DNA of 64,000 nucleotides from a virus: IMG/VR virus record IMGVR_UViG_3300048592_001371, positions 1 to 64,000 of that record, one strand, 5' to 3'. The translations under genes and the position numbers were made by a program. The notes below the pieces were generated by a model that searched no databases, was not told where the DNA came from, and saw nothing but the letters and a program-made list of their open reading frames with translations. Numbering within the stretch: position 1 is the stretch's first letter; each line of letters begins with the position of its first letter. Shown one piece after another: positions 42,979 to 59,801 of the stretch.

Positions 42979-42990
42979 GAGCAACTCGTG

Positions 42991-43000
42991 TGACCGGTCA
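42991..43000. repeat. 10-bp palindrome in intergenic gap
   Basis: TGACCGGTCA is a perfect palindrome in the 81-base gap between the copy-5 fibre and the next gene. It is followed by the AT-rich TGTAAATTAACA. It could be an operator half of a control site for the genes from 43060; nothing more can be said. Confidence 0.3.
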
Positions 43001-43059
43001 TGTAAATTAACATTGGCCGGGTACGGCACATTCAACCAAACCGTAATAGGAGAAGTAAC

Positions 43060-43413: not shown

Positions 43414-43415
43414 GA

Positions 43416-45107: not shown

Positions 45108-45758
45108 ATGGGAATTCGTGCCATCATCAACAAGAAAACCGGGCGTCTGGTTTCGACCATAGCCGGGGACAGAACGTATGAAGCTTCTGCGGTTCTGGAA
45201 AGCAACCCGGATTTGCGCGTTCGCTACTTGAACGTCAAGCTCCCGACAGGTTACCGCCACGTCGACGCCTCGCGTTACAAGATCAATGCTCGAGGCGTGG
45301 TGTTCAAGTCGGCAGTGACTGCTGACGAAATCGTCGGCCTCCGTGTGGATGCGGCCAAGATTCGCGCTACAGCTCTGATCCGCACATTGGTCGAACTGAA
45401 ACGTCGGCCTCTGACCAAGAACTACACGCTGCAGGGTCAAACCTACCGCGAGAAAGCGTTGCAAGCCAAGGCCCTGAAAGACGCGCTTGTTGCCAATCCG
45501 GGAATGTCAGACACACAAGTCGAGGCCGTGGCACCTATGGTTCTCGACTACGCACGTCTGAAGGGCATTTCCAATTCGGCGGCCGCTGACGACATCTGTC
45601 TGAAGTGGGACGCGGTTCTGGCTACCGCGCGTACGACGGAGAACCAGCGCCAGACCTTCAACGAGCGCATCAAAACGGCGACTACAGAAGAAGAAGCTCT
45701 GGCTATCGAGCAAGAACTGCGCGACCTGATCACTGCCGCAACGCAGCCGGCCGCGTAA
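45108..45758 (+). CDS. tail-module protein, helical-domain family, copy 1
   Basis: A 216-residue protein at the end of the tail module. The N-terminal part is strand-rich (AIINKKTGRLVSTI, LPTGYRHVDASRYKI), and the C-terminal part is a helical domain (KALQAKALKDALVANPGMSD, then a helix ending TTEEEALAIEQELRDLI). The same architecture recurs in three proteins inside the enzyme block (52976, 57557, 59166). A terminator follows the stop. In tail modules such proteins may be fibre chaperones or small structural parts; the role is not known. Confidence 0.5.
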   Translation: MGIRAIINKKTGRLVSTIAGDRTYEASAVLESNPDLRVRYLNVKLPTGYRHVDASRYKINARGVVFKSAVTADEIVGLRVDAAKIRATALIRTLVELKRRPLTKNYTLQGQTYREKALQAKALKDALVANPGMSDTQVEAVAPMVLDYARLKGISNSAAADDICLKWDAVLATARTTENQRQTFNERIKTATTEEEALAIEQELRDLITAATQPAA

Positions 45759-45814: not shown

Positions 45815-46543
45815 ATGTTGAGACTGTCCGAAATCTACAAACCTGTGTTCTCGGCAGATGATGTGAGACTGGTATCGGAAACATTCTGCCACTCACTCGC
45901 TCCCGGATACGCAGACATTATCGGCCGACTATCCAAAGGCCTGCAAGTCCGCTCTGCCTCTGATGCAGACCTTGACATGCTCAAGTATCTACGCGGACTT
46001 AACGTCCTCTCGTATGAGGACACTGCTCTCTCCAGCGAGAACCCACTCATGTACTGGCGCCTATTGGGTTACAGTACAGAGTACGTCCAGAAGCAAATCA
46101 AACACAATACAATTCGGGTACTAGGAGGGGACAACCCAGACATCGATGCCTTCTCAGAACAACTGGCCGCTCTGGGATGGACAATATGCGATGACAGTCG
46201 AGTACGGGTGATTCTGCTGAACAGCCAGGCTCAGATAGATGAAGCACTGTCGTTCTACGGTCTGCGTATGGCGACTATCCCAATAGTGCTAGATCGATTT
46301 CGCGCCTCAATTGGGCCGTTGTACTACCCCGGTTTGCTCGAATGGCCGAATCTGAGCAAACAAGCGGAAGCCTCTCCGGTCTACTTGAAAGAAGGGGCCG
46401 GACTGATTCCAGCGTACAAGTCGATTCAGCTAAGACTGGTTGCCTTGTACGTTGCAAGAATTCTGATGTGCCTTGAGGACATTGCGAGCTGTTTCCTAGA
46501 GCTCGATCTGACGACCATGCGAGTGAAGGAGCGACATGTCTGA
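45815..46543 (+). CDS. E1/ThiF-like (cyclodehydratase-partner-like) protein
   Basis: A 242-residue protein opening the enzyme block. The N-terminal 75 residues look like a winged-helix or peptide-recognition segment (DADLDMLKYLRGLNVLSYED). It continues with a Rossmann-like stretch (NTIRVLGGDNPDIDAFSEQL, RVRVILLNSQAQIDEALSF) and IGPLYYPGLLEWPNL. The IGPxxxPG element is a hallmark of the E1-like partner of azole-forming cyclodehydratases. The usual zinc cysteines after it and a YcaO gene are absent here. Similarity is judged by eye and modest. The start at 45815 is close behind the terminator with only GGTACAGA upstream. Confidence 0.35.
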   Translation: MLRLSEIYKPVFSADDVRLVSETFCHSLAPGYADIIGRLSKGLQVRSASDADLDMLKYLRGLNVLSYEDTALSSENPLMYWRLLGYSTEYVQKQIKHNTIRVLGGDNPDIDAFSEQLAALGWTICDDSRVRVILLNSQAQIDEALSFYGLRMATIPIVLDRFRASIGPLYYPGLLEWPNLSKQAEASPVYLKEGAGLIPAYKSIQLRLVALYVARILMCLEDIASCFLELDLTTMRVKERHV

Positions 46544-47450
46544 GATCACGAATTTCGACTTGTTCGTAGGGTACAATCAAAGGCCATGGACATTCTCTAC
46601 GAATCCTTCCGACAAGTTCATGGTCTGGTCGAAGCGCCTGAAGCGCAAAATCTTCCCCTTCCGAGACGAGCTAGCACAAGCGGCGCAAGAATTATCAGTA
46701 CGCGGACTAGGTCCCTTCTACGTTCTGTATTCTGGTGGCTACGACAGCGAAGCAATCCTAGCAGCCTTTCTGGAGAACGGTCTGCCTGTTGTCCCGATCA
46801 TGGTGCGATATACCGATGAGAGCAACTCGGAAGACTTTGAACACGGGCTAAACTACTTAGCCCACTACGAGATGTCTCCGATCATCTACGAGATAGATCT
46901 GGCGAAGTGGATACACTCACAGGAGTGTCGTGACCTAGCAGAGAAGGTGCAAGCCGGTGATCTAGCAACGACAGCCATCTACAAGGCTGTGCTAGATATG
47001 CCGCAACTGCGCGAAGGCTTCTTTATCATGGGTTTGCACGAACCAGCCATCTACGCCCAGGACACCGAAGAGAAGCGTGAATGGGTACTGCTGGAAGAGG
47101 AGAAGTGGTACGCACATCACAAATTCCTACTGGCCCACAATCTACGTGGGATAGGTGCCTTCATACACTACAGCCCGGAGCTTTACACGTCCTTCGTGGT
47201 CAATCCAGCGTACATGCGTGTGTATGCGAACATGTTCAATCCTGAGCTGTGGCAAGCCGAGTGGGTGAAGCATCAGTTGTTCTCAAAGTATCTGCGCTTG
47301 GAGCGTAGAGAAAAACGGACAGGGTTCGAAGCGATTCAAGGTGAGGTCAATCGTATCAACCACGAATGGATACGAGAGCACGAAGGATTGTGGGATAGGC
47401 ACTACGTGACGCCTGTCCTAGATTGGGTACGTGGAGTAGGCCACCTATGA
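46536..47450 (+). CDS. PP-loop ATP-dependent enzyme
   Basis: A 304-residue protein with the PP-loop SGGYDS (residues 66-71) in FYVLYSGGYDSEAILAAFLE, the ATP-pyrophosphatase signature shared by asparagine synthetase, GMP synthetase and QueC-type enzymes. It would adenylate a carboxylate, thiol or similar group and release pyrophosphate. It is more distant from the three asparagine-synthetase-like proteins downstream and lacks their GDGxD element. It overlaps both neighbours. The acceptor is unknown; amide formation is a reasonable guess from context. Confidence 0.65.
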   Translation: MSEITNFDLFVGYNQRPWTFSTNPSDKFMVWSKRLKRKIFPFRDELAQAAQELSVRGLGPFYVLYSGGYDSEAILAAFLENGLPVVPIMVRYTDESNSEDFEHGLNYLAHYEMSPIIYEIDLAKWIHSQECRDLAEKVQAGDLATTAIYKAVLDMPQLREGFFIMGLHEPAIYAQDTEEKREWVLLEEEKWYAHHKFLLAHNLRGIGAFIHYSPELYTSFVVNPAYMRVYANMFNPELWQAEWVKHQLFSKYLRLERREKRTGFEAIQGEVNRINHEWIREHEGLWDRHYVTPVLDWVRGVGHL

Positions 47451-47905
47451 ATATAGTCAAGATCACAAACGACAAAGACGTGATGCGTCTCATGCTGGAG
47501 GAAAAGCGACCTCTGCAACAGGTCTTTGGCGTAGAGAACGTCATGCGCGGCTACACTGACGAGCAAAGCGGCTACTTCGGCGTCTACAAAGAGCTCTGTT
47601 TGTCTAGTGCCTATCAGTGCTCGGCTTGGTCTGATGTCCTGTTCGTACATGACATCGTTGGAGCAATTCAGGATGTCTGGTTGCACATACGAAACGGACG
47701 CAACTTTGTAGCATACGTCCGAAAGGGTAACATGCCGAGCCTGGGGGAGCTAGAAGGTCTGTTTGGCCTTCCCGTCTTCGCCAACAGCACACGGAATTTG
47801 GACTACGCAATGCTCCATTCTCTGTTCAACTACGTTCTTCCTCAAGAGAACGGTTACGTTATAGCGAGCCAAAAATGGGACATTCCATTGATGATAAGCC
47901 TGTAA
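47447..47905 (+). CDS. hypothetical protein of enzyme block
   Basis: A 152-residue protein of unknown function (MNIVKITNDKDVMRLMLEEK). It contains two cysteines in LCLSSAYQCSAW and an aromatic, hydrophobic core. The ATG overlaps the previous stop, and the end overlaps the sulfotransferase by 31 bases, so it belongs to the same coupled operon. No motif recognised. Confidence 0.5.
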   Translation: MNIVKITNDKDVMRLMLEEKRPLQQVFGVENVMRGYTDEQSGYFGVYKELCLSSAYQCSAWSDVLFVHDIVGAIQDVWLHIRNGRNFVAYVRKGNMPSLGELEGLFGLPVFANSTRNLDYAMLHSLFNYVLPQENGYVIASQKWDIPLMISL

Positions 47906-48762
47906 TCATTTGCTCCTTCCCGAGGAGCGGCAGTACGTTGCTTCAACGATTGCTGAACACACATGACGATCTATGCATCTGGGGAGAGAACCTCGGTCTT
48001 CTGACAGCTATGCTAGACCAGATTGCAGCCTTGCGCTGGACGGGAACAGATCCCAAGACAGCGGCCCAAGTCAAACAATCTTCCGAATTTTCTCCGGTCA
48101 GCACTCCCTACACGGCTTTCGATCTGCAAGAAGCGTTCAAGAAACTCCTCGTCGGCTTTTACGCTAGAGGGTTGAAAGAGAATATACGCTGGGGCTACAA
48201 AGACCACAATCACTACTACCCATTCGATCTAATTGAGATCAACAAGATATTCCCCGGGGCTCAGTTCATCGTATTGAGAAGGAACGGTCCAGACTGTTGC
48301 ACGAAAGCTATATTGGCGCCTTGGGTGCGCGAGAAGATAGAAGGCACTCCGAGCCTGTTAGGAGTAGACGTGCGTGCCAGTATGGACAGCTTGGTCTCTT
48401 CCGTCATTCTCACCTATCTGCAATTCAACACCTTCGCTTCGAACGTCTACAAAAACAGAACAGACGTGAGGGTGATTGAGTACGAGGATCTGGTGCGAAG
48501 TCCTGAGCATGTGATCGAGCACTTGTCGCAATTCTTGAATCTACGGCAGGACGGCTGGAATATTGAAGCCTTCGAGACACAGCTATCAACGAAGCTGGGG
48601 AAAACGCCCAGTCAGGGAAGCTATGGCTTCATGACAGAAGAGTTGGTACGGGAGTACGTGGACAAGTGGTGGAGGAAACTGGTAGTAGAGGGCAACGTCG
48701 AACGGCGAGAGCGTGATCTTCGTTGGAACGTTGTGACGGGTAGACACTGGCGCTGGTACTGA
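47875..48762 (+). CDS. PAPS-dependent sulfotransferase, enzyme block
   Basis: A 295-residue sulfotransferase. The 5'-phosphosulfate loop is SFPRSGSTLL (residues 14-23), GYKDHN lies at 107-112, and the 3'-phosphate motif is LRRNGPDCCTKAI (134-146). It would move a sulfo group from PAPS to an unknown acceptor in the pathway. The start is the only ATG before the loop and lies inside the previous gene. It is not closely similar to the sulfotransferase at 36863 beyond the motifs. An APS kinase ends the same operon. Confidence 0.85.
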   Translation: MGHSIDDKPVIICSFPRSGSTLLQRLLNTHDDLCIWGENLGLLTAMLDQIAALRWTGTDPKTAAQVKQSSEFSPVSTPYTAFDLQEAFKKLLVGFYARGLKENIRWGYKDHNHYYPFDLIEINKIFPGAQFIVLRRNGPDCCTKAILAPWVREKIEGTPSLLGVDVRASMDSLVSSVILTYLQFNTFASNVYKNRTDVRVIEYEDLVRSPEHVIEHLSQFLNLRQDGWNIEAFETQLSTKLGKTPSQGSYGFMTEELVREYVDKWWRKLVVEGNVERRERDLRWNVVTGRHWRWY

Positions 48763-48769
48763 GGAAATC

Positions 48770-49189
48770 ATGACTTCTGTTCGTGTATCGCAAGAGAAAC
48801 TGAAAACAGGCTCGCTGGACGTGGCGGAACTGGTTCTGGAAACCCAGCTCGATCTAGCGCGTAGAAACATTACCGCTGCGTACTTCCCAATACGAGAGGA
48901 ACTGGACGAGACATTAGTTCTGCGCGCCATGAACGGAGAACTGGCGGCTGTTCTCGTTTGGCGAAAGTATGTCGACTCTATCTGGATCATCATAGCAGCC
49001 GTGAAGGATGGCTTCCGAGGGCAAGGACTGCATCAACTGCTGCATCAAGAACTGGACAAGGTAGCGCGCCAACTTGGCATCGGCGTCATTGAGACGTATG
49101 TCGGGACAGAGAACAAATCAGTGCTGCGGTCCTACGAAAAGATGGGTATTACGCCACAGATGTACTACATCAAGAAAAAGGTGCCGTAA
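48770..49189 (+). CDS. GNAT acetyltransferase, copy 1
   Basis: A 139-residue GNAT-fold acyltransferase. The acetyl-CoA motif A is R83-G-Q-G-L-H in FRGQGLHQLLHQ, and YEKMG lies at 122-126 where the catalytic tyrosine is usually found. It would acetylate an amine using acetyl-CoA. It directly precedes and is coupled to a radical SAM gene (TAATG). Two further copies lie at 50652 and 52542. Confidence 0.75.
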   Translation: MTSVRVSQEKLKTGSLDVAELVLETQLDLARRNITAAYFPIREELDETLVLRAMNGELAAVLVWRKYVDSIWIIIAAVKDGFRGQGLHQLLHQELDKVARQLGIGVIETYVGTENKSVLRSYEKMGITPQMYYIKKKVP

Positions 49190-50655
49190 TGCTGTTGGAG
49201 AACGTCGATCTGTTGCTCATTTCGGATTGCTACGAAACTCCGTATGTAAGGTATAGCGGCCCCTACGTCCTCGCTTCCTACCTTCGCAGGCATGGTCTGA
49301 GAGTGCAGGTAGTAGACTACTTTTCCCGCTTCACAGATACCGAGATAGAAACCATAGTAGACGTGTGCGTTGGCTCCAATACCAAGGCGGTAGGAGTATC
49401 GGATACATTCTCCGGCAAGCCCTTGCATGAGCTCGCAGATGGATCGACCTATGGTTGGCCCTTCTTCGAGAGGCATGACAGGATACGTCGCTTCATCGGC
49501 AATGTCAAGCGCAAGAATCCGAAAACGCGACTGTTGATGGGTGGGCAAAAGACCACTCAAGGACTAAGCGCCGGGTACATAGACACATACTTCCATGGGT
49601 TCGCCGAACAGTCACTTCTCGCTTATCTACAAAGCGAAGGACATGAAGTTCCACGTGTCGTCAAAGAAGCCACCATCCCGAATTGGAAAGACATCCCAAC
49701 CATTCATCACGAGTCCGACAACATCCTCGAAGGAGAAACGCTGCCGTTAGAAGTGTCTCGTGGCTGTATCTTCAACTGCAAATTCTGCTCATACCCCCGT
49801 CGAAATGCCAAGGACTTGAACTACATAAAGTCGGAGGAAGCTATCTACCAGCAGCTTCTGCACAACTATGAGCAATATGGCACTACCTGTTACACGCTAC
49901 TGGACGATACGCACAACGATTCGAAAGCCAAACTCGAAACCATTCGGAACGTTCTAGATCGTCTGCCGTTCAGCATCGAATTTGCTACCTATCTGCGGCT
50001 CGATCTGATAGCCAAAGATATGTCCACCGCGGAGTTGCTCATACGAAATGGACTACGTGGAGCCTTCTTCGGAATAGAGACACTACACAAGGAAGCGGGA
50101 CGACTCGTTGGAAAAGGCCTAGAGCCTGACGAAACGAGAAAGGCGCTGCGAAAATTACGGGAGTTGTGGGGAAACGAAGTAGGAACGCAAGGTGCTTTCA
50201 TCCTAGGCTTGCCGAAACAGCCAGAAGCTGATGTGATACTGATGTGCGAAGAGGTCTGCGACCCTTCCTTCCCGTTACATGGCCCAATATTCTTTCCGTT
50301 GATCATGTATCCAGGCAGGACAAATCCCTCACCGTTCGAGAAAAATCCGTCCCTATACGGGATACGCTTGGAGGAAGGGGATCGGCACGGGTATTGGCAT
50401 AATAGTGAAACCGGCATGGACTTCGAACGCGCGATAGAGATTCAAAACGAATACACGACGCGCATCTACCGCAATCACAGACGCCAATGTGGAGGTTTCT
50501 TGCCCATCATGGCAGTTAATCTAGGTATCAAAGCGCGGGACTTAATCGGCATGCCCGCGAGGGTCGCTCATAAGAAGTACAATATGCAGTCGAGGGAGTC
50601 TCCCTATTTGGCAAAGTACAAAGCAAAGGTTCTGGGAACAACGGAGGGGCAATGA
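49189..50655 (+). CDS. B12-type radical SAM enzyme, copy 1
   Basis: A 488-residue enzyme. The N-terminal 150 residues look like a cobalamin-binding Rossmann domain (YSGPYVLASYLRRHGLRVQV, LLMGGQ), without the classic DxHxxG. The radical SAM cluster ligands are C193, C197 and C200 in SRGCIFNCKFCSYPRR. It would make a 5'-deoxyadenosyl radical for methylation, C-C bond formation or another alkylation. It starts MLLENVDLLL, as do copies 2 and 3, on a TAATG overlap with the GNAT gene. Substrate unknown. Confidence 0.85.
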   Translation: MLLENVDLLLISDCYETPYVRYSGPYVLASYLRRHGLRVQVVDYFSRFTDTEIETIVDVCVGSNTKAVGVSDTFSGKPLHELADGSTYGWPFFERHDRIRRFIGNVKRKNPKTRLLMGGQKTTQGLSAGYIDTYFHGFAEQSLLAYLQSEGHEVPRVVKEATIPNWKDIPTIHHESDNILEGETLPLEVSRGCIFNCKFCSYPRRNAKDLNYIKSEEAIYQQLLHNYEQYGTTCYTLLDDTHNDSKAKLETIRNVLDRLPFSIEFATYLRLDLIAKDMSTAELLIRNGLRGAFFGIETLHKEAGRLVGKGLEPDETRKALRKLRELWGNEVGTQGAFILGLPKQPEADVILMCEEVCDPSFPLHGPIFFPLIMYPGRTNPSPFEKNPSLYGIRLEEGDRHGYWHNSETGMDFERAIEIQNEYTTRIYRNHRRQCGGFLPIMAVNLGIKARDLIGMPARVAHKKYNMQSRESPYLAKYKAKVLGTTEGQ

Positions 50656-51074
50656 AGGTAACATTCAGGACGGAGAAGGTATTTGAGTTGAACAACGAGG
50701 TCATAAAATTCATACTGTTGTCCTATGTCGAACTCCTGGATAGAAGTTTGTCCGGTATGGGAATTCCCTTCGCGAATACCGACGACGTTCTCATGGCTAC
50801 GAACGAAAAAGGGGACTTGACCGGCTGTATTGTGCTGAGGAAAACGAACGACGCCATCCCTACCTACTGGGTGATCCTAACGGCTGTGAAGCAAGAGTTC
50901 CGTGGTAAGGGACTGCATAAGCAAATGCACAGTCGCCTAGATGCGATTGCTCGGGCCAACGGCATCCAGTACATCTCATCCTACGTCTCTCCGAACAACA
51001 AGGAAAGCTTGAGGGCGTATGAGAAATTCGGCGCAGAACAGTCTATGATAAAGATCAACCGGAAGGTCTCGTAA
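50652..51074 (+). CDS. GNAT acetyltransferase, copy 2
   Basis: A 140-residue GNAT protein, paralogous to copy 1. RGKGLH at 84-89 is the acetyl-CoA loop and YEKFG at 123-127 the C-terminal motif. It lies between two radical SAM genes and overlaps both (ATGA before, TAATG after). Duplicated GNAT-radical SAM pairs suggest one chemical step repeated on different positions or substrates. Confidence 0.75.
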   Translation: MKVTFRTEKVFELNNEVIKFILLSYVELLDRSLSGMGIPFANTDDVLMATNEKGDLTGCIVLRKTNDAIPTYWVILTAVKQEFRGKGLHKQMHSRLDAIARANGIQYISSYVSPNNKESLRAYEKFGAEQSMIKINRKVS

Positions 51075-52540
51075 TGCTGTTAGAGAACGTCGACTTGCTA
51101 ATCGTTAGCGATTTCGCCAATCCCATCTACAAGTCACGCTACAGCGGTCCATACGTTCTCGCCTCCTACCTTCGCAGATTGGGTCTGCGCGTTCAGATAG
51201 TTGATTACATCTCCGAATTCTCGGACGAACAACTGCGGGATATCGTAGACGTTTGTGTCGGGAAGAATACCAAGGCCGTTGGCATTTCTGACACCTTCAG
51301 TTACTTCCAGACACACATGAACGCCAATCGAGTGAATGAGTTCACGATAGCGGGTTGGCCTTTCCTACGAGAGGAGCGGATCAAGGCCTTTGTCGCTAGA
51401 ATCAAGGGTATCAACCCCGATACGCAGATCATCATGGGTGGTGCTAAGTCGACGCGCTTCGATCAACCCGTTCCCTACGTAGACGTTCTATTCAGAGGAT
51501 TTTCCGAAGCGTCCCTAGCAAAGTATCTGATGTCCCGTCACCTGGGTTTGAACAGTTCGTCCTTCGTCGAGGAGCTTCCGATAGATGATTGGATAGACAC
51601 GGTCACTCATATGAGTCCGGAAGACAACCCCTTGGTCAACGAAACCGTTCCTTTGGAAATCTCCCGCGGATGCATATTCAACTGTAAATACTGTTCATAC
51701 CCACGTAAGGGAGCGAAGGACTTCGATTACATCAAGACGGAGGAATCGCTCTACCAAACGCTCTTTACGAACTACTCGGAGTTCGGCATTCGTCGCTACA
51801 TGCTGACGGATGATACGCACAACGATTCGATGTTCAAGCTTGAGCGCTTGCATCGCGTCACTCAACGGCTTCCCTTCAAGATCGAGTATAGCTCGTACAT
51901 CCGAGTCGACTTGCTTCACCGCTATCCTGAGATGATAGACCTGTTGAAAGAGATAGGTCTGAAAGGAGCGATGATGGGGATAGAAACCTTGAATTGGGAA
52001 ACGGGCAAGATAATCGGCAAAGGATTGCAGCCTAAGAAAACGATTGAAACGCTCCAGCTCTTACGTGAGAAGTGGGGCGACACGATCGGTACCCAAGGTA
52101 TGTTCATTCTTGGTTTGCCGCGCCAATCATACAAGGATGCTATCGCGATGTGTGAACGCATAAGCGCAGAAGACTTCCCATTGCATGAGGCACTATTCTT
52201 CCCTCTGTATTTCTTGACCCAGGCTCGCGTCAAGTCGGCTTTCGATATGGACTACGAAAGTTTCGGGTACAAGGTAGAGGGAAAAACGTGGGTCAACGAT
52301 CAAGGGATGACGTCCGAACAGGCAACAAAGCTGGCTAGGTATTACACGAACAAGAACAGAAAGAGCGGGCGTGAGAAGTTCGGTGGCAATCTGCCATTAC
52401 AGCTAGCCAATAGCGGATATGTCGTCGACGACTTGATAGGGAAACCGTTGGGCTCGTTTTTCGAGTCTGAGGAAGCAAAGGGACGCACTACTGAATATGT
52501 GCGTCGATACAAACGAAAACTTTTTGACGTAGAGGAATGA
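51074..52540 (+). CDS. B12-type radical SAM enzyme, copy 2
   Basis: A 488-residue paralogue of copy 1 with the same N-terminal start (MLLENVDLLIVSD) and layout. Cluster ligands are C200, C204 and C207 in SRGCIFNCKYCSYPRK. The N-terminal domain has YSGPYVLASYLRRLGLRVQI. Conserved DDTHNDS, GIETLNWETGKIIGKGLQ and IGTQGMFILGLP segments are shared by all three copies. Coupled to the GNAT gene before it. Confidence 0.85.
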   Translation: MLLENVDLLIVSDFANPIYKSRYSGPYVLASYLRRLGLRVQIVDYISEFSDEQLRDIVDVCVGKNTKAVGISDTFSYFQTHMNANRVNEFTIAGWPFLREERIKAFVARIKGINPDTQIIMGGAKSTRFDQPVPYVDVLFRGFSEASLAKYLMSRHLGLNSSSFVEELPIDDWIDTVTHMSPEDNPLVNETVPLEISRGCIFNCKYCSYPRKGAKDFDYIKTEESLYQTLFTNYSEFGIRRYMLTDDTHNDSMFKLERLHRVTQRLPFKIEYSSYIRVDLLHRYPEMIDLLKEIGLKGAMMGIETLNWETGKIIGKGLQPKKTIETLQLLREKWGDTIGTQGMFILGLPRQSYKDAIAMCERISAEDFPLHEALFFPLYFLTQARVKSAFDMDYESFGYKVEGKTWVNDQGMTSEQATKLARYYTNKNRKSGREKFGGNLPLQLANSGYVVDDLIGKPLGSFFESEEAKGRTTEYVRRYKRKLFDVEE

Positions 52541-52541
52541 C

Positions 52542-52976
52542 ATGGAACTAAAAATCCATAGTATTTCCATCATGCGCGTGTCAAACGATGTGCTGTCATT
52601 CATCCTTCGTACAATGGCCGATTTGGTAGAGGACGGACACTCGGGAAGAGGAATCGCTGTTACCAATGCGGACCACGTAGTCGTAGCAAGGCGTTCTGAC
52701 AATGGCGAACTCGTAGGAGTGCTTGTCTACGTAATAAATAGGCCGAAGGATTTGCTGTGGGTAAATCACGCCGCCGTCAAAGAGCAATATCGCGGACAGG
52801 GGATACATCGAAAGATGCATGCGATGCTCAAAGACATCGCCCGAAAGGAGAATGTCTACGAAGTTGGTTCCTACGTCTCTATTGAAAACAGGGCGAGTGT
52901 AGGGGCGCACAGCAAACGACCCGGCGTCAAGTTCCCAATGATGCGAGTATCCGTGCCCGTTACAGAGGACAAGTAA
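52542..52976 (+). CDS. GNAT acetyltransferase, copy 3 (divergent C-terminus)
   Basis: A 144-residue GNAT protein. The acetyl-CoA loop RGQGIH is intact at 84-89, but the YEKxG motif of copies 1 and 2 is replaced by AHSKRPGVK, so the usual catalytic tyrosine is missing. It may use another base, bind without catalysis, or be degenerating. AGAGGA precedes the ATG. It is coupled to the helical-domain protein that follows. Confidence 0.65.
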   Translation: MELKIHSISIMRVSNDVLSFILRTMADLVEDGHSGRGIAVTNADHVVVARRSDNGELVGVLVYVINRPKDLLWVNHAAVKEQYRGQGIHRKMHAMLKDIARKENVYEVGSYVSIENRASVGAHSKRPGVKFPMMRVSVPVTEDK

Positions 52977-53602
52977 TGAAACAATTCCGACGATTTTGGT
53001 TCTGCGTTGATCTACGCGACAATACTGTGCTGTATCTGGAGCACGACTTCGGTCACAATCAGCCTCCTGGAATAGACCCGGAGGCAAACGTCTTCCCTCT
53101 TGCGGGTATGTTCCCGACCGATTTTACACCGGCGACGTGTGCGAAATTCGAGTACGTCGATGGGGCACAAGTAGCATTGAAGAAGGAGAAGCTAACCCAG
53201 CGCCAAAGTCTGTTGCGCCAAAAATACGTAGCTTTGGCAAAGATCATGAAAGTGGTCTACTGGGGCAGAACGAAGGTCAACAAAGGTTGGCTGCAGCAGG
53301 ACGCCGTCTACAAAATGAAGTTGGACGCGGCTGTTGCCTATCTCAACAAAGAAGAGAATCCTCCGGGCCTAGCAATGCTGCAACATGAAGCCGATTTGCG
53401 GAAAACGACCGTCTATGCGATGGCGAAAGCAATAACCATCGCGGCGCAGGATAACGAGCGCATCCTGATCGACACGGAGAACTTTCGTCAGGAGTGGACT
53501 CAAAAAATCCGAGCTTGCTCAAGTCTGCTAGAGCTGCAGCAAGTGATGGATACTCTCCGCAGCGAAAGCTACATTCCGGTCACTATGGGGTTCCTGCAAT
53601 GA
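52976..53602 (+). CDS. helical-domain family protein, copy 2
   Basis: A 208-residue protein of unknown function in the family of the tail-module protein at 45108. It starts with strands (FWFCVDLRDNTVLYLEHDF) and has a C-terminal helical domain (YKMKLDAAVAYLNKEENPPG, TVYAMAKAITIAAQDNERIL, CSSLLELQQVMDTLRSE). It overlaps the asparagine-synthetase-like gene by ATGA. The same order is found twice more downstream. It may be a carrier, substrate or partner of that enzyme, or a tail protein modified by it; this is inference. Confidence 0.5.
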   Translation: MKQFRRFWFCVDLRDNTVLYLEHDFGHNQPPGIDPEANVFPLAGMFPTDFTPATCAKFEYVDGAQVALKKEKLTQRQSLLRQKYVALAKIMKVVYWGRTKVNKGWLQQDAVYKMKLDAAVAYLNKEENPPGLAMLQHEADLRKTTVYAMAKAITIAAQDNERILIDTENFRQEWTQKIRACSSLLELQQVMDTLRSESYIPVTMGFLQ

Positions 53603-54621
53603 AATTCCTCGTCTTCCAACCAATGCCGAATACGGCGCACAAAGGACTGGCCCAGACACAGGTGGTGATAGGGAACTGCAATTCTCCGATCTCTCGTCTG
53701 AACCGATTCAAGACAGGGGACGTGCTCGATTACAAGTGCGTCTACCCAATCTTGGATTTGCGGACGGATATCAAAATGGCGGATCCGTTCGCCGAGTTCG
53801 ACGCGGCAATGTTGGCCGCGGCCGGTCGTATTCGAGACTTCTCCGAGAAGAACAATGTTCCTGTTCACGTGATGTGGAGCGGCGGTCTAGACAGCACCTG
53901 TGCCTTGGTAGCCCTTGTTCGGGCTGGCGTCCGACCGGTTGTGTTCTTGCATGGATATTCGATCCACGAGAACCCAACAATGTTCTACCAATTCGTCAAG
54001 GACTACGAAGTAGCACACGTCCGAGACACGGACAGGCTGTTCTCCGGGGCCGTTGTTATGGGTGAAGCCGGGGATCAACTCTTTGGTTCGGACATGATGA
54101 TCAAAATGCACAGGCGAGACCTGTTCGCTCCGAATTGGAAGGACTCGATCATCAACAATCTGAAAGAACGCGGACGCAGTCTTCTGGATACATTCTTGCC
54201 TATAGTGGATGAATGTCCACGACAGATCGAGTGTGCGGCCGATTTCTTTTGGTGGTGGAACTTCTCGCAGAAGTCTCAAGCGGTAGCTCTGCGCTACTTG
54301 ATAAACGCGAAGGATCCGGCGGACGCGGCCACGCGCTGGAGCCCTATCTTCATGGACAAGCAAATCCAGGAATGGTCGTTGAACGCACCGAGAGAGGCAA
54401 AGATCGATCCAAGCGTTGGCGTACCTAGCTACAAGCTGGCCATTCGTCGGTTCATTTCCAAGTACGCCAGCCCAGATTATGTACTGCCTTCGAAGATAGG
54501 TAGTTTGTATCGGACAATGATCATCTCGCAGCACAAACACCCCGCACTCGATGAGAACTATAACAAGGTGTCTGCGCTCGATGTCGACAAGCAACTACAC
54601 GTGAATTGGAGCTTCGCCTAA
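53599..54621 (+). CDS. asparagine-synthetase-like amide ligase, copy 1
   Basis: A 340-residue protein with the synthetase half only of class-B asparagine synthetases. The PP-loop is SGGLDST (residues 94-100), GEAGDQLFG lies at 155-163, and a C-terminal SYKLAIRRFISKY segment leads to PSKIGS with the likely catalytic lysine. There is no N-terminal Cys glutaminase domain, so the amine must come from ammonia or another compound, as in beta-lactam synthetase-type and lasso-peptide cyclases. It is preceded by a helical-domain protein and followed by a radical SAM gene (TAATG overlap). Confidence 0.75.
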   Translation: MKFLVFQPMPNTAHKGLAQTQVVIGNCNSPISRLNRFKTGDVLDYKCVYPILDLRTDIKMADPFAEFDAAMLAAAGRIRDFSEKNNVPVHVMWSGGLDSTCALVALVRAGVRPVVFLHGYSIHENPTMFYQFVKDYEVAHVRDTDRLFSGAVVMGEAGDQLFGSDMMIKMHRRDLFAPNWKDSIINNLKERGRSLLDTFLPIVDECPRQIECAADFFWWWNFSQKSQAVALRYLINAKDPADAATRWSPIFMDKQIQEWSLNAPREAKIDPSVGVPSYKLAIRRFISKYASPDYVLPSKIGSLYRTMIISQHKHPALDENYNKVSALDVDKQLHVNWSFA

Positions 54622-56078
54622 TGCTGTTGGAGAACGTTGATCTACTGATCCTTAATGAGTTCTCTGATCCGTACTTCAAAGTGAGGTACTCGGGACCTTA
54701 CGTGCTTGCTTCGTACCTGCGTAATCGAGGATACCGTGTTCAAATACTCGACTATGTTTCGCATTTCACGGATGCTCAGTTGGTAAAGGCGCTACGAGTA
54801 TGCGTCGGCCCGAAAACGTTGGCTGTTGGCCTAGCCGGAACCTTCACGGTTTCCTTGAAGGCGACGTATTCGGCCAAGGATACGCCGGAGGCACGTACTG
54901 GATGGCCACTATGTCAGCCACGGCGCATCGACTTGTTCCTCGACACTGTACGGTCTATCAACCCAGAGACAAAGATCATCATGGGTGGGCATAGACACGG
55001 GTATGACTACCCGAGAGACGTGGACACCCTGTTCTTGGGGTTTTCCGAGGTATCTCTGTTCAATTACCTCGAGACTCTAAGAATAAACAACAGCTGGGTT
55101 CCCAAAGTCGTCCAGGAAGAAAAGCAAGAGGGTTGGAACAGAGACGTTTTTCTGTACTCGGAGGAGGACAACATCCTTCCCGGCGAGACGCTGCCTCTTG
55201 AGATTTCTCGCGGTTGTATTTTCAACTGCAAGTATTGCACGTATCCAAGACGCGGGGCGAAGGATTTCACCTACGTCAAAGACGAGGATGTGATACGTAC
55301 TCAACTGTCACACAACTATGACAAGTTCGGGGTTCTGAATTACACGCTGACGGATGACACACACAACGACACTGAAGAAAAACTGAAACGTCTCATTCGT
55401 GTTCAGAAGGAGTTGGGCATTCAAATACGCTATTCGGCGTATGCTCGTCTGGACCTCATTCATACCTTCCCACACACCGCGGACCTTCTATTCCAGGCCG
55501 GTATGCGTGGTCCCATGTTTGGCATCGAGACGCTGAATTGGGAAGCCGGGAAGATGATTGGCAAGGGCTTGCACCCAGACAAAGTCCGTGCGACATTGCA
55601 CCGACTACGCGCAGAATGGGGAGACGAAGTAGGCACGGAGGGGATGTTCATTCTCGGCTTGCCTAAGCAAAGTCGGTTAGACATGGTACGAATGGCCAAG
55701 GAACTGATGGATCCTTCGTTCCCTTTGCATTACGTGATTTTCTACGCCCTGATCATACAACCGTTGAAGGAAGACTCGGCCTTCAATCGAGAACCCGAGA
55801 AGTTTGGGTACGATACTTCAGTCAAAGCGGCGGGGAACTGGGTACGTGATGATGGTTTTACTGCTGACGAAGCGCGGCAGATGCAAATACTCTATACCAA
55901 TCAGATGATCGAGACGCAGCGAAACAAGTTTGGTGGTGTTCTACCGTTCTTGGTATCGAACGGTGGACGCTCTCTGCAAAGCATGATTGGAAAGCCATTG
56001 GAGTTGTCGCAGCGTGATTACATTGACGCGACACGCTACATGGAACGTTATCTAGCCAAGGTGTTTTCGGAGGACTAA
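54621..56078 (+). CDS. B12-type radical SAM enzyme, copy 3
   Basis: A 485-residue paralogue of copies 1 and 2 with the same start (MLLENVDLLILNE). Cluster ligands are C199, C203 and C206 in SRGCIFNCKYCTYPRR. The N-terminal domain includes YSGPYVLASYLRNRGYRVQI and KIIMGGHRHG. The ATG at 54621, on the TAATG overlap with the ligase gene, is chosen because it matches the starts of the other two copies; a start five codons upstream is also open. Confidence 0.85.
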   Translation: MLLENVDLLILNEFSDPYFKVRYSGPYVLASYLRNRGYRVQILDYVSHFTDAQLVKALRVCVGPKTLAVGLAGTFTVSLKATYSAKDTPEARTGWPLCQPRRIDLFLDTVRSINPETKIIMGGHRHGYDYPRDVDTLFLGFSEVSLFNYLETLRINNSWVPKVVQEEKQEGWNRDVFLYSEEDNILPGETLPLEISRGCIFNCKYCTYPRRGAKDFTYVKDEDVIRTQLSHNYDKFGVLNYTLTDDTHNDTEEKLKRLIRVQKELGIQIRYSAYARLDLIHTFPHTADLLFQAGMRGPMFGIETLNWEAGKMIGKGLHPDKVRATLHRLRAEWGDEVGTEGMFILGLPKQSRLDMVRMAKELMDPSFPLHYVIFYALIIQPLKEDSAFNREPEKFGYDTSVKAAGNWVRDDGFTADEARQMQILYTNQMIETQRNKFGGVLPFLVSNGGRSLQSMIGKPLELSQRDYIDATRYMERYLAKVFSED

Positions 56079-56942
56079 ATGTATTGGAACAGGTTGTTTG
56101 ACGACGTGGTTGACTTCACCCAGCATCGGTATTACTCACAGTTCGAGAATCTGAAATCCACGAACCCGCAGAATTTTCGCTGCGACCCACTAGCCCCGAG
56201 TCCTGTTCTTTTCTTGGGTTCCTGTGACATGGGTGGTCCTGTCAATAACGCAGACGAAGTGTGGCCGCGACGCGTGTATAGAAAACTATGTGAGTCGCAG
56301 GGGCGGTTCCCGTACATGGCTTTGTCCAAGATCAGCTCTGGACTAGAAGCCACGTTGCGTCGACTGTACATCTACTGCGAACTCGTAGGTCCGCCGAAAG
56401 TGCTCTATATGGTCATGCCTCGGCCAGTAAGCATTGAAATTCCTGTGAAGCGGTCGATGACAGATCCTCTCGTTGGAGTAACGGACATAGAGCGATACTT
56501 GACGTTCCTCGGCAAACTCCCAACAATCACAACCGAAGAGGTGTTCCTCTTCAAGAAGATTTCTGAGGTACTGATCGGTTTGTCTGAGAATGAGTCGTAC
56601 CAACTGTACCAGTTTGAAAAAGGGACCGCCTTCTTGCAGACGCTCTGTCGTTTGCACAATATCGAGTTACGCTGGACGCCCAATCTTAGTGCCACTGCCA
56701 TAGAGTACTACGCCAAATACTTTTCTCTGTTCCTGAGGGAGAATGATTTCATGCGGCAGACGTGTCTGGGTGTTGGCAAGGCTCTGGATTTCTCAGGCGA
56801 CGGATCTGTGGGCGACGAGACACAGGGCGTTATCGCTAATCTGATGCTGGATGGCAAACCCGGTGAATTTTCTCTAGACGCAACAAAGAAGCAGCTGGTC
56901 GAGAACTTGGAATTCAAACGCACAACCCTGGAGGAAAAATGA
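56079..56942 (+). CDS. SGNH-hydrolase-like protein
   Basis: A 287-residue protein. SPVLFLGSCDMGGPVNNADE followed by VWPRRVYRKL and VLYMVMPRPVSIEIP follows the layout of phage SGNH/GDSL-like proteins, where a GxS block, a WP segment and a late P-x-R segment recur. The catalytic histidine block near the C-terminus is not clear (DGSVGDETQGVIANLM has no His). It may be an esterase, an acyltransferase or an inactive binding protein. CGGAGGA precedes the ATG, and the stop overlaps the next gene. Confidence 0.35.
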   Translation: MYWNRLFDDVVDFTQHRYYSQFENLKSTNPQNFRCDPLAPSPVLFLGSCDMGGPVNNADEVWPRRVYRKLCESQGRFPYMALSKISSGLEATLRRLYIYCELVGPPKVLYMVMPRPVSIEIPVKRSMTDPLVGVTDIERYLTFLGKLPTITTEEVFLFKKISEVLIGLSENESYQLYQFEKGTAFLQTLCRLHNIELRWTPNLSATAIEYYAKYFSLFLRENDFMRQTCLGVGKALDFSGDGSVGDETQGVIANLMLDGKPGEFSLDATKKQLVENLEFKRTTLEEK

Positions 56943-57547
56943 TACCACTACACGTAGCAAATCTCAATACACGGGACTATGTCCATGGCACGTCTATCAT
57001 GACAGGGCTGACGCGCTTCCTACTAGAAAATCACGATACCGTAACGGAATTCACCTTCCGTCTGTACAAGAAGCTCCTGACTTTGCCGCTACTGAGCATT
57101 ACCGAGAAACAGGTCGACAATCCAAAGGACTACGTCGCTACGGGTTCCTTCATGGGAAACGGCTCGCAATGGTTCTTCCAAATTCAGCCTTCAGTCCTTC
57201 CCGTGGAGCACGTTCTGCACATTGACGAGTCCGCTCTAGTAAATAGGATAGAACTGAGAGGAGACAGGTACGTCATAGACGTTGAAGAAAAAGACGACGT
57301 CTTTGTCACCTGGAATGCCATATCAAAGACGCACAACCTGAGAGTGTTCAGCGAGCTCGGCGTGACAAAGCCGGGTGGCCAGACATGGCTAACAGGACAA
57401 ACATTCAAAGACTTGTCCTTCTTGAGAACTCGGCCTGCGACATTGGGAAATTCGGTCGCGTTTCAGAGACTGTCCGAGCGCTGTATCAAACATGACATGT
57501 ACTACGACGAGGCAATAGTCGGAGACAAGACTATAGTCTATGCCTAA
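56939..57547 (+). CDS. hypothetical protein of enzyme block
   Basis: A 202-residue protein of unknown function starting MIPLHVANLNTRDYVHGTSI. Two Trp-containing beta stretches (GSQWFFQIQPSVLPVEHVL, KPGGQTWLTGQTFKDLSF) suggest a mainly beta, possibly double-psi or cupin-like fold, though no metal motif is visible. It is coupled to the SGNH-like gene by ATGA. No family recognised. Confidence 0.5.
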   Translation: MIPLHVANLNTRDYVHGTSIMTGLTRFLLENHDTVTEFTFRLYKKLLTLPLLSITEKQVDNPKDYVATGSFMGNGSQWFFQIQPSVLPVEHVLHIDESALVNRIELRGDRYVIDVEEKDDVFVTWNAISKTHNLRVFSELGVTKPGGQTWLTGQTFKDLSFLRTRPATLGNSVAFQRLSERCIKHDMYYDEAIVGDKTIVYA

Positions 57548-57556
57548 GGGGACATA

Positions 57557-58165
57557 ATGCTGCAACTTGCTATCGATGTGACGGATGGTACGGTCATATA
57601 TGCCTTACCGGATGCGTACCGAATCTGCATGCCCAAATTGCGGACATGGATAGAAAACATCATACTCGATGTTCGGCTTCCCAAGGATTTCCCGATACGC
57701 GCATTAGGTTCACAGAATTTTGTCCGTATAGGGCTGGAAATTCAACGACGGGTGGATAGCGTCCCGGAAGCAGCTATGCTTCTGAATCTGAAATACCACT
57801 CCGTGGACAAAGTGAACATGCTGGTTAATGGACATCGCTTTGCAACGATGAACAAGTTGCTGTTGCAACCACGAGTGTACGAGCTAAAAATAGCGGAGGC
57901 TGAAGCCGTATTGAAGTCGGGCTCCAGTTTGGAGCCCGTAGAAAACGCGCCTATGCTGATAGAGGAAGCAAAAGCGCGGGGCCTATCTGTACGAGATGTT
58001 GCCAAGACTGTTCTACTGGCCAGAGACGATCAGGACGACATGCTGAAAAGGACGGAAGGTATGCGAATATCCGCCACTATTCGCATCTCCGAGGCAAAAA
58101 CACCGCAAGAGGTTTTCGAGATAATGTCGGGCTTCGAGGAAAGTTTCCACAACCGAGGCCTATGA
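57557..58165 (+). CDS. helical-domain family protein, copy 3
   Basis: A 202-residue protein clearly homologous to copy 4 at 59166: both have LAxDxxDxTxIYAxPxxYR, an LPxxFPIRxLxSQxFV stretch, ALLNxKYxxxD, and NGxRFAxxNKLLxQxRxYExK. The C-terminal helical domain runs to TPQEVFEIM. It overlaps the following asparagine-synthetase-like gene by ATGA. GGGGA precedes the ATG. Unknown role; the fixed pairing with the ligase is the main clue. Confidence 0.55.
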   Translation: MLQLAIDVTDGTVIYALPDAYRICMPKLRTWIENIILDVRLPKDFPIRALGSQNFVRIGLEIQRRVDSVPEAAMLLNLKYHSVDKVNMLVNGHRFATMNKLLLQPRVYELKIAEAEAVLKSGSSLEPVENAPMLIEEAKARGLSVRDVAKTVLLARDDQDDMLKRTEGMRISATIRISEAKTPQEVFEIMSGFEESFHNRGL

Positions 58166-59169
58166 TGAGACCGTTGATCTACATAGGTACTCCTAGATAT
58201 CGAAACAGGGTTTTGCGTACTCTGTACCAAGTTCTGCATATCGACGTACCGATGTCTCGTTGTGCTTATCAGGAGTGCAACGTCGTCCCAGTCAGTCATG
58301 CTTTCCCTTTGATGTCCGAACATCGAATAGCGCCGTGTGCCCAGCCGCTTTATGAATTAGAACGCTTGGTCCTAGACAGGGCGACACAGCTTGTGTCGGA
58401 ATCGTCTCAGACGGGAAGGCCCATTTGCGTTAAATACTCCGGTGGTCTGGATAGTATGTTGGCACTCCTGGCCTTCGAACGAATTTCCGCAGAATACAAA
58501 GTCTTCCTGACGCCCAACTCCATCAAAGAAAATCCCACCGTCTTCAAAAAGTTCATTGCCCATCGTGAGTATTTTCACGCGAACGACCCTTCTGTCTTTG
58601 ACGGGCTCGTGATAACAGGAGACGGAGGGGATGCTCTATTTCTAGACGCTATCGTTAAAGGGCCGCAGATGAGGCATGGCGATGCGGTATTGGACTGGGA
58701 CTGGAAAGACGGTTTCGTGAAGGGTATGTGGGGCACGCCAGAAGAGAACAAGTTTGTCTTGGGACTACTAGAGCCGGCGATGCACGATTGTCCCTGGCCA
58801 GTGAAGACGGTTCGGGACTTCTTCGCTTGGACTGGCCTAGCGATCTTCTACCAACCGGAAGTATTGCGTTGGCTTCCTACACTACAGGATCCAAAGAAGA
58901 ACTGGCCTTGGGTCCGGCCGTTCTTTGCAACGAAGGAATTCGTGGAGTGGTCTCTTGGGCAAGAGCCGAAAATCAAGTATCCAAGTACGTCTGACTACAA
59001 ACCAACATTCCGAAAACTGTGTGAGAAATTTTCGGGACTGGATCTATCGGACATGAGGAAAGACTTCTCGCTAGGTAAGACGAGGGGTGCTGCTCCTATG
59101 GTGGTAGGCGTGATGGAAGACTTGACACACGTCACCACCGAAGGAATCGAAAAACTGGTAAAGGAATGA
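58162..59169 (+). CDS. asparagine-synthetase-like amide ligase, copy 2
   Basis: A 335-residue synthetase-only asparagine synthetase homologue. It has SGGLDS at 93-98, GDGGDALF at 153-160 and a C-terminal YKPTFRKLCEKFSGLDLSD-MRKDF segment that holds the catalytic lysine position. The N-terminus carries PMSRCAYQECNVVPV in place of the glutaminase domain, nearly the same as copy 3. It lies between two helical-domain genes and overlaps both. A second ATG follows directly and could also serve as start. Confidence 0.78.
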   Translation: MMRPLIYIGTPRYRNRVLRTLYQVLHIDVPMSRCAYQECNVVPVSHAFPLMSEHRIAPCAQPLYELERLVLDRATQLVSESSQTGRPICVKYSGGLDSMLALLAFERISAEYKVFLTPNSIKENPTVFKKFIAHREYFHANDPSVFDGLVITGDGGDALFLDAIVKGPQMRHGDAVLDWDWKDGFVKGMWGTPEENKFVLGLLEPAMHDCPWPVKTVRDFFAWTGLAIFYQPEVLRWLPTLQDPKKNWPWVRPFFATKEFVEWSLGQEPKIKYPSTSDYKPTFRKLCEKFSGLDLSDMRKDFSLGKTRGAAPMVVGVMEDLTHVTTEGIEKLVKE

Positions 59170-59801
59170 ATATGGGCGCTCCGAATCTCTATCAACTCGC
59201 GGTTGATACACACGACAATACCATCATCTATGCGATGCCGGAAAGTTATCGGTTGTCCCTGCCAGATTTGAGAACCTGGGTGGAGAACAAACTGTTCTAC
59301 GGAAGCTTGCCTGAAGGCTTTCCAATACGCAATCTGGATAGTCAAAAGTTTGTGCTATCTGAGGGAAAGGTCCTAGCACGGAAGGACGAGGTTCGGGAAG
59401 GTGTCGCTTTGCTGAACGTGAAGTATTGGGCGATCGATCAGGTTCTAATGATCATCAACGGACAACGCTTCGCGGTAACAAACAAGCTGTTGATGCAGGA
59501 TAGGATATACGAGGCAAAGGTCGAGGAAGCGCGTCTGATTCTGGCAAGACAAGACGAGGAGCTCAGGAAGTCACACTTTGAGACATCTTGTCCTATGCTG
59601 TATGCTGAGTCCGAGGACAAAGGACTGAGTCTAAACGTCGTAGCAAAAACAGTGATGGTAGCATACGAAGAACAAATGTCTCGCTTGAAGAAAACGGAGA
59701 TCATGCGAATGGCGATAACGAACAAAATCGCCAATGCCGAGACAGAGGAACAAGTTCGGGCTCTGTTGAAGGACGTCAAACTCTATTTCTACACGAGATG
59801 A
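59166..59801 (+). CDS. helical-domain family protein, copy 4
   Basis: A 211-residue paralogue of copy 3, with LYQLAVDTHDNTIIYAMPES, LPEGFPIRNLDSQKFVL and GVALLNVKYWAIDQVLMIIN. The C-terminal helices (YEAKVEEARLILARQDEELR, LNVVAKTVMVAYEEQMSRLK, AETEEQVRALLKDVKL) match the phage tail-associated type. Its start overlaps the stop of ligase copy 2, and its stop overlaps the start of copy 3; an ATG two codons later is an alternative start. Confidence 0.55.
   Translation: MNMGAPNLYQLAVDTHDNTIIYAMPESYRLSLPDLRTWVENKLFYGSLPEGFPIRNLDSQKFVLSEGKVLARKDEVREGVALLNVKYWAIDQVLMIINGQRFAVTNKLLMQDRIYEAKVEEARLILARQDEELRKSHFETSCPMLYAESEDKGLSLNVVAKTVMVAYEEQMSRLKKTEIMRMAITNKIANAETEEQVRALLKDVKLYFYTR

Follow-up and report, generated by a model that had tools for sequence, protein, structure and literature searches.

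The three radical SAM enzymes encoded between the tail-fibre and lysis genes of this contractile-tailed phage, whose sheath and baseplate genes lie upstream, are old paralogues with the class 1 (B12-type) architecture, and they belong to a phage-borne family that has apparently not been described previously. We propose, with a probability of about 0.38, that they are methylcobalamin-dependent C-methylases acting in a late modification pathway related to the virion or to the receptor. The window, that is, the whole stretch of 64,000 nucleotides analysed here, comprises positions 1-64,000 of IMG/VR virus record IMGVR_UViG_3300048592_001371, and its relevant genes are collected in Table 1.

Table 1. 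Genes of the radical SAM operon and the adjoining tail-fibre genes, in window coordinates.
Feature	Position	Strand	Basis
Tail-fibre genes (40831-42978; 43416-44300), directly upstream of the operon	40831..44300	+	PHROG tail fibre 5.5e-12, 4.2e-10
sm1 (216 aa), first sm gene, adjoins tail-fibre genes	45108..45758	+	BLAST to sm3/sm4, E 8e-6 to 5e-9
Hypothetical protein (242 aa)	45815..46543	+	No NCBIfam match to E 5; 45884 fragment, no Pfam match to E 1
PP0 (304 aa; SGGYDS), PP-loop ATPase	46536..47450	+	Weak QueC match, E 0.012; cluster c11 in 9 loci
Hypothetical protein (160 aa or shorter)	47423..47905	+	No family over cut-off
Sulfotransferase (295 aa)	47875..48762	+	PF13469 3.4e-21
GNAT A (139 aa)	48770..49189	+	PF00583 30.6 bits (cut-off 20.7); overlaps copy A start by 1 nt
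Radical SAM copy A (488 aa), B12-type, GNAT-paired	49189..50655	+	PF04055 8.8e-13; alignment; tree
GNAT B (140 aa)	50652..51074	+	PF00583 42.8 bits; overlaps copy B start by 1 nt
Radical SAM copy B (488 aa), B12-type, modelled copy	51074..52540	+	PF04055 6.1e-16; AF2 pLDDT 91.5, pTM 0.91
GNAT C (144 aa)	52542..52976	+	PF00583 37.3 bits
sm2 (208 aa), first half of the inserted sm-PP unit	52976..53602	+	BLAST; phrog_21671 (annotated unknown function)
PP1 (340 aa), PP-loop ATPase, asparagine-synthetase-like by motif (SGGLDS, GEAGDQLFG)	53599..54621	+	Motifs, alignment
Radical SAM copy C (485 aa), B12-type	54621..56078	+	PF04055 1.7e-13; alignment
Hypothetical protein (287 aa)	56079..56942	+	GSCDMG motif; no Pfam/NCBIfam match over cut-off
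Hypothetical protein (202 aa)	56939..57547	+	No family match
sm3 (202 aa)	57557..58165	+	BLAST among paralogues
PP2 (335 aa), PP-loop, asparagine-synthetase-like by motif (SGGLDS, GDGGDALF)	58162..59169	+	Motifs, BLAST
sm4 (211 aa)	59166..59801	+	BLAST; model pLDDT 81.8
PP3 (335 aa), PP-loop, asparagine-synthetase-like by motif (SGGLDS, GDGADALF)	59798..60805	+	Motifs, BLAST
PLP-dependent LysA/ornithine-type decarboxylase (368 aa)	60802..61908	+	PF02784 1.5e-49; best NCBIfam lysA, below cut-off
Adenylylsulfate (APS) kinase	61905..62429	+	PF01583 7.8e-55; TIGR00455 above cut-off

The first-pass annotation had grouped the three copies by their MLLENVD start, their CxxxCxxC cluster and their nearly equal length, and this grouping holds. 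All three begin with MLLENVDLL (in copy C at the ATG at 54621, the mechanical reading frame opening at a TTG at 54606), share RGCIFNCKxC in the alignment, lie well over the cut-off of PF04055 (Radical_SAM) and are 46-49% identical in pairs. Aligned with each other, copies A and B reach 430 bits, and none of 200 shuffles exceeded 24.6, so their likeness is not due to chance. In codon comparisons third positions are 33-38% identical, which is near saturation, while second positions are 65-67% identical; the copies are therefore old duplicates, all of which have been kept under purifying selection.

In the AlphaFold model of copy B, an N-terminal Rossmann domain of five strands (residues 8-12, 40-43, 68-72, 118-122 and 138-140) with alternating helices precedes a radical SAM barrel, which is the architecture of class 1 enzymes. 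A non-Rossmann N-terminal domain or misplaced cluster cysteines, either of which would have spoken against the assignment, were not found: Cys200, Cys204 and Cys207 directly follow the first barrel strand (191-195), and the cysteines of the CxxxCxxC motif are invariant in 64/64 family members. The best PDB match by Foldseek was MgmA (E 7e-16), which also headed the VIA list, in a tie (Z 21.9, rmsd 4.2, 354 aligned); it was followed by OxsB, CysS, TsrM, AprD4 and RimO/MiaB, with the OxsB, TsrM and CysS matches spanning residues 5-475. The model and these matches thus bear out the B12-type architecture read from sequence. Fold and family were computed, and cobalamin use and methyl transfer are predicted.

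The absence of DxHxxG from the N-terminal domain, remarked on earlier, is no oddity, since class 1 enzymes generally lack this motif and hold cobalamin base-off with no histidine ligand (PMC13331322). In OxsB and TsrM, the residue near the lower face of the cobalt comes from the loop that follows strand 3 (PMC13331322). The same loop in the phage family reads S-x-T-F/W, with S72 in 59/64, T74 in 53/64 and F/W75 in 59/64 members, and the 16 invariant columns of the family, including E195, RGCxFxCxxC, N250, G302, K316, W406 and Y479, are kept in all three copies. AprD4, RimO and MiaB share this fold yet work without cobalamin, and AprD4 is not a methylase. The copies could likewise carry out cobalamin-free radical chemistry, whether dehydration or epimerisation as in AprD4 or with an N-terminal domain of the RimO/MiaB kind, a reading that we consider improbable. 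AprD4 and RimO/MiaB do lie within 1-2 Z units of MgmA in the fold comparison, and none of the window copies reaches the cut-off of the B12-binding profile PF02310 (E 0.007-0.03); however, PF02310 matches 37/64 family members at E<=0.01, an aromatic residue is conserved at the predicted lower-face loop, and there are no cysteines among the conserved N-domain columns of the family alignment, unlike in RimO/MiaB.

The coupling of the radical SAM genes to GNAT genes stands as first noted, two of them overlapping the starts of copies A and B and the third lying two genes ahead of copy C. All three GNATs score above the PF00583 cut-off and are paralogous to one another (30-37% identity); motif A of GNAT A is an RGxGLHxxxH variant. 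In the radical SAM tree, which had been proposed as a check, the copies form one clade with support of 99, which indicates a lineage-specific triplication; because the GNAT/radical SAM gene order repeats as well, the duplicated unit was the pair. The sm-PP-loop unit that separates GNAT C from copy C is probably a later insertion. The presence of three such enzymes in one operon, called striking at first, is less so in itself, since several copies per phage are common within the family; what is particular to this lineage is the monophyletic triplication and the pairing with GNATs, which in this form was found only in the window and is not usual for the family, a GNAT gene being present at 13/53 family loci.

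The family comprises at least 88 IMG/VR contigs, found with the alignment of copies A, B and C as query; a viral search with copy B alone gave no match. Four family members used as tblastn queries retrieved no member from about 50,700 GenBank phage records at 1e-5, plasmids gave remote radical SAM matches only, and cellular genomes a single clear match, on a 6-kb MAG contig. It is thus a large and widespread class of viral enzymes without an assigned function, almost confined to uncultured phages.

The operon runs on one strand, with overlapping genes, from the tail fibres to 62429. Between 46536 and 62429 the intergenic gaps range from -31 to +9 nt; the only wider spacings, 47 and 56 nt, flank sm1. 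Since the genes from 46536 to 62429 overlap or nearly touch, they leave no space on the coding strand for a separate precursor gene. This argues against a RiPP-like pathway that matures a small precursor peptide of its own, as does the lack of any RRE, peptidase or transporter family over cut-off among the scanned proteins. Some distant NCBIfam matches of the copies are RiPP C-methylases, other phage loci carry many SPASM/twitch radical SAM proteins, and one locus (L085) has a 95-aa Cys/Asn-rich reading frame near its B12-type gene, but a RiPP-like role seems very improbable to us.

Several other genes of the operon were assigned more loosely. The protein at 45815-46543 had been read by eye as a RiPP cyclodehydratase or RRE-like protein, a candidate dropped when NCBIfam gave no match, and the GSCDMG motif suggests that the 56079-56942 protein may be an SGNH-type hydrolase. 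The sm genes form a paralogous family by BLAST; no relatives were found in viral contigs, the sm4 model has no significant PDB match, and a role resembling that of a tail-fibre chaperone is a guess. For the asparagine synthase C-domain PF00733 (cut-off 21), PP1 scores 13.2 bits and PP2 and PP3 give no match, so that their putative assignment follows from motifs. The product of APS kinase, PAPS, is usable by a sulfotransferase.

PP0, whose homologues lie near the B12-type gene in 8 other dereplicated phage loci, bears on the possibility of DNA or nucleotide hypermodification, in which the radical SAM enzymes would act on bases of the phage's own DNA. PLP decarboxylases, GNATs, radical SAM and PP-loop enzymes are known from thymidine and 7-deazaguanine hypermodification pathways, and this phage has 7-deazaguanine genes elsewhere, with PHROG matches to QueD and QueE at positions 75744 and 80042 of the contig. 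However, PP0 matches QueC (PF06508) at 15.5-15.9 bits, under the cut-off of 22, and with a single cysteine it has no QueC-type zinc site; no QueC above cut-off was found, and the TGT-like gene has no PF01702 match. Both this missing QueC and the location of the operon among late tail and lysis genes, some 13-18 kb from QueD/QueE, weaken a DNA-modifying role, which we rank slightly below even cobalamin-free chemistry.

Across 53 family loci, the neighbours include PP-loop genes in 20, 2OG-type genes in 26 and other radical SAM genes in 25. Clustering of twitch radical SAM genes around the B12-type gene was significant in 5/12 large records and not in the other 7, and universal clustering was accordingly rejected. 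At two loci (L009/L010), two tandem copies stand directly ahead of a tail-fibre-like gene, and pelagimyophage host-recognition clusters combine tail fibres with radical SAM cassettes (PMC7029224). Against a virion-related role, clear adjacency to tail fibres is found in a minority, one tail-fibre type occurring in 7-8/53 loci, and in a T4-like clade (L060-L083) the gene lies, as judged by eye, near primase-like and ribonucleotide reductase-like genes.

It is possible, though we think it unlikely, that the same enzymes make a small molecule or modify a surface glycan or lipid of the infected cell, for superinfection exclusion or as an acetylated metabolite of the phosphinothricin type. The best NCBIfam profiles are those of the PhpK P-methyltransferase and a ladderane-lipid B12-type radical SAM enzyme, the operon has an amino-acid decarboxylase, amide-ligase-like PP-loop proteins, a sulfotransferase and APS kinase, and relatives have fatty-acid-desaturase-like genes nearby (13 loci), along with genes of the SGNH, AMP-ligase and aminotransferase types; pelagimyophage clusters also include LPS glycosyltransferases (PMC7029224). 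Yet every NCBIfam match stays far short of its cut-off: the PhpK/BcpD family (TIGR04479), the best match of all three copies in their radical SAM part (E 1e-17 to 4e-20), gives 67.5, 71.7 and 63.7 bits, far below its cut-off of 600, and Pfam and NCBIfam scans of operon genes found no glycosyltransferase, sugar-nucleotide, carrier or transporter family over cut-off. Iterative methylation or C-C bond formation of the natural-product kind, as first suggested, is singled out by nothing, and the genomic surroundings favour a role late in the phage cycle.

For the preferred reading, C-methylation in a virion- or receptor-related pathway, we envisage the following course. First, methylcobalamin would most likely bind base-off over the conserved S-x-T-F/W loop; SAM would be cleaved at the [4Fe-4S] cluster, a hydrogen would be abstracted from an unactivated carbon (or phosphorus), and the methyl group would then pass from cobalt to the substrate. 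Second, the pathway, whose genes lie between those for tail fibres and lysis, would act late in infection on a phage-made substrate, most plausibly a virion or tail-fibre polypeptide or some small group that such a polypeptide carries. Finally, the GNAT could N-acetylate the same substrate or its precursor, and since each radical SAM gene arose with its own GNAT by unit duplication, each pair is probably devoted to a single site or step; the PP-loop enzymes may form amides, the sulfotransferase and APS kinase may add sulfate, and the PLP decarboxylase could supply further groups. A bolder version, which we doubt more than the small-molecule alternative, would make the operon a virus-owned factory in which the three GNAT/radical SAM pairs and the amide, sulfate and decarboxylase enzymes build non-canonical tail-fibre side chains, so that receptor binding would be diversified chemically rather than by sequence. 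Radical methylation of unactivated carbons is rare, costly and dependent on host B12. That purifying selection has kept all three old copies implies that they bring a real benefit. Should a virion protein be the target, phages would have a new means of diversifying host recognition; should the target be a metabolite or a surface group, phages would affect the host in a new way.

Among characterised enzymes, MgmA, the glutamine C-methylase of methyl-coenzyme M reductase (TIGR04014; PDB 9ccb), resembles the phage copies in joining an N-terminal Rossmann domain to a radical SAM barrel; it methylates a protein glutamine in a B12-dependent reaction (PMC11796369). It is archaeal, however, acts on MCR, has no GNAT and is 18% identical to the copies, which score 27.3, 17.9 and 16.3 bits with its profile (cut-off 360). 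The class 1 enzymes OxsB, TokK, TsrM and CysS have the same domain order, a five-stranded N-domain and no histidine lower-ligand motif, but are 12-15% identical to the copies and have substrates in antibiotic pathways, whereas cobalamin in the phage enzymes is predicted. The methylthiotransferases MiaB/RimO carry N-domain cysteines, of which the phage family conserves none, and their profile TIGR00089 (cut-off 251) gives 12.7, 16.2 and 11.5 bits. In phages, radical SAM genes have been reported in number from variable regions, together with tail fibres in pelagimyophage host-recognition clusters (PMC7029224) and as 11-12 proteins in Campylobacter phages CP220/CPt10 (PMC2853527); the accessible portions of both reports name radical SAM only and describe no B12-type family with GNAT partners. 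Counterparts already deposited are two proteins of uncultured Caudovirales annotated by superfamily, with no function given, A0A6J5LFT0 ('COG1032 Fe-S oxidoreductase'; TM 0.89, 28% identity) and A0A6J5LDK6 ('Radical SAM'; TM 0.77, 21% identity), which match the fold over its full length and are probably members of the same radical SAM family.

The three B12-type radical SAM (rSAM) genes of the window, copies A, B and C, all carry the MLLENVD start and the CxxxCxxC cluster ascribed to them in the first-pass annotation, encode 488, 488 and 485 aa (copy C read from the ATG at 54621 rather than the mechanical TTG at 54606) and share 46-49% pairwise identity. Their GNAT partners, likewise proposed from sequence, are all genuine PF00583 proteins, 30-37% identical to one another. 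Their acetyl-CoA motif takes an unusual form, RGxG(L/I)HxxxH, which turned up in no other ORF of the retrieved loci. All genes from 46536 to 62429 share a strand, each overlapping its neighbour or separated from it by no more than 9 nt, and two kinds of unit recur, three GNAT-rSAM and three sm-PP-loop. The latter pair paralogues termed sm with PP-loop genes (PP1-PP3) bearing asparagine-synthetase-like motifs. The third GNAT does lie two genes ahead of its rSAM, because the sm2-PP1 unit sits between them. The four diverged sm paralogues, sm1 to sm4, start at 45108, 52976, 57557 and 59166. Three of them overlap the next gene, a PP-loop gene, by 4 nt, and sm1 is flanked by gaps of 47 and 56 nt; the sm family had no relatives in viral contigs, and the sm4 model (N-part beta, C-part helical) had no significant PDB fold match.

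Features of the phage operon and of related loci
Feature	Position	Remark
PP-loop gene PP0	46536-47450	
Sulfotransferase	47875-48762	operon end opposite APS kinase
rSAM copy A	49189-50655	
rSAM copy B	51074-52540	
rSAM copy C	54621-56078	
LysA/ornithine-type PLP decarboxylase	60802-61908	inside operon; below every equivalog cut-off
APS kinase	61905-62429	operon end opposite sulfotransferase
QueD and QueE (PHROG matches) and the TGT/DpdA-like protein between them	L004:15744-16214, L004:17176-18678, L005:42-827 (contig 75744-80827)	later pieces of the same contig
Desaturase-like cluster c3	L033:9201-9950	and 12 other loci; HRxxxH/HxxHH/HNNHH boxes
Cys/Asn-rich ORF	L085:5701-5988	95 aa; C-terminal end NCYNCNCNCNC

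APS kinase makes the PAPS that sulfotransferases use, so the two form a coherent pair and, judged from sequence, may give a sulfation step a phage-encoded source of PAPS. The operon's coding strand leaves no room for a separate precursor peptide gene, and a role of copies A-C in a RiPP pathway seems very improbable.

The AlphaFold model of copy B, built from an alignment of 64 family members (mean pLDDT 91.5, pTM 0.91), has an N-terminal Rossmann domain of five strands (8-12, 40-43, 68-72, 118-122, 138-140) alternating with helices, followed by a barrel with Cys200, Cys204 and Cys207 immediately past its first strand. The model thus shows neither of the two features named in the first-pass annotation as grounds for rejection, an N-terminal domain at odds with a Rossmann fold or cluster cysteines outside a radical SAM barrel. 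The B12-dependent protein glutamine C-methylase MgmA was the top match in both Foldseek (E 7e-16) and VIA-align (Z 21.9, rmsd 4.2, 354 aligned), with OxsB, CysS, AprD4, RimO and TsrM effectively tied in VIA-align Z. The same fold serves without cobalamin in AprD4, RimO and MiaB, and copies A-C fall below the cut-off of the B12-binding Pfam, which matches 37 of 64 family members; cobalamin-free catalysis is nevertheless improbable. Class 1 cobalamin-dependent rSAM enzymes bind base-off cobalamin without a histidine ligand, the residue under cobalt coming from the post-strand-3 loop (Asn186 in OxsB, Arg69 in TsrM; PMC13331322), and in MgmA no residue occupies this position (PMC11796369). The corresponding loop of the family reads S-x-T-F/W (S in 59/64, T in 53/64, F/W in 59/64 sequences). 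Cobalamin use is likely.

Relatives are encoded in at least 88 viral contigs by alignment query (80 kept), and all family counts are lower bounds since sampling used short peptide patterns. Two uncultured Caudovirales proteins in BFVD match over full length; four family members had no match among 50,697 GenBank phage records, and only one of 14 genome-contig matches was strong, to a MAG contig of 5,968 bp listed under Bdellovibrionaceae. A tree built on 66 representatives places copies A, B and C in a single clade (support 99), sister to a protein of another viral locus, L008. More than one copy per record is frequent (1-4 matches in records searched whole, some weak), mostly from different clades.

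Within about 7 kb of family members in 53 dereplicated loci we found 2OG-Fe(II)-oxygenase-like (26), twitch/SPASM rSAM (25), PP-loop (20), GNAT (13), membrane desaturase (13) and SGNH hydrolase (8 loci) genes. The link with the family is broader for PP-loop enzymes than for GNATs: 8 other loci contain a PP0 homologue, and in L085 an rSAM is preceded, at a distance of two genes, by a PP1 homologue. Several cluster c3 genes lie immediately upstream of a B12-type rSAM. In 5 of 12 large records twitch rSAMs clustered around the B12-rSAM (P between 0.004 and 2e-7), whereas the remaining records showed no such clustering; a 342-kb jumbo phage record (L024) has 21 twitch-rSAM matches, most in two clusters, one per end, possibly a single cluster if the record is circular. 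The Cys/Asn-rich ORF of L085 lies directly upstream of a structural-looking gene, the PP1 homologue and two rSAM genes, one SPASM-type and one B12-type; its product could be a precursor or a small virion protein that undergoes modification.

The 123,553-bp IMG/VR record that contains the window has tail sheath, baseplate wedge and tail-fibre PHROG matches, and hence belongs to a contractile-tailed phage. In the related L009/L010 two tandem rSAM copies immediately precede a tail-fibre-like gene, with similar tail-fibre genes in 7-8 loci. We infer, with a probability of roughly 0.38, that copies A-C would transfer methyl groups from methylcobalamin to carbon, late, in a phage-encoded modification pathway whose most plausible target is a virion or tail-fibre protein, or a group that such a protein carries. 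The fold, family, paralogy and setting come from computation; cobalamin, methylation, timing and substrate are deduced. The main rival of this reading, a small-molecule or host-surface product, is somewhat less probable. The phage also encodes, between QueD and QueE, a protein with the SDSGGFQ motif of TGT/DpdA that lacks a PF01702 match, and no QueC above cut-off; together these genes probably serve 7-deazaguanine DNA modification. That copies A-C themselves act in DNA modification is doubtful, slightly more so than cobalamin-free catalysis.

The architecture of copies A-C is already known from other enzymes; when tested against PhpK, MgmA and MiaB/RimO, they fell outside all three. Phage genomes rich in rSAM genes were known previously (PMC2853527, PMC7029224). 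As far as our searches went, three things are new: the existence of a B12-type rSAM family carried by phages, its triplication together with GNATs in a single lineage, and the build of the operon from repeated units.
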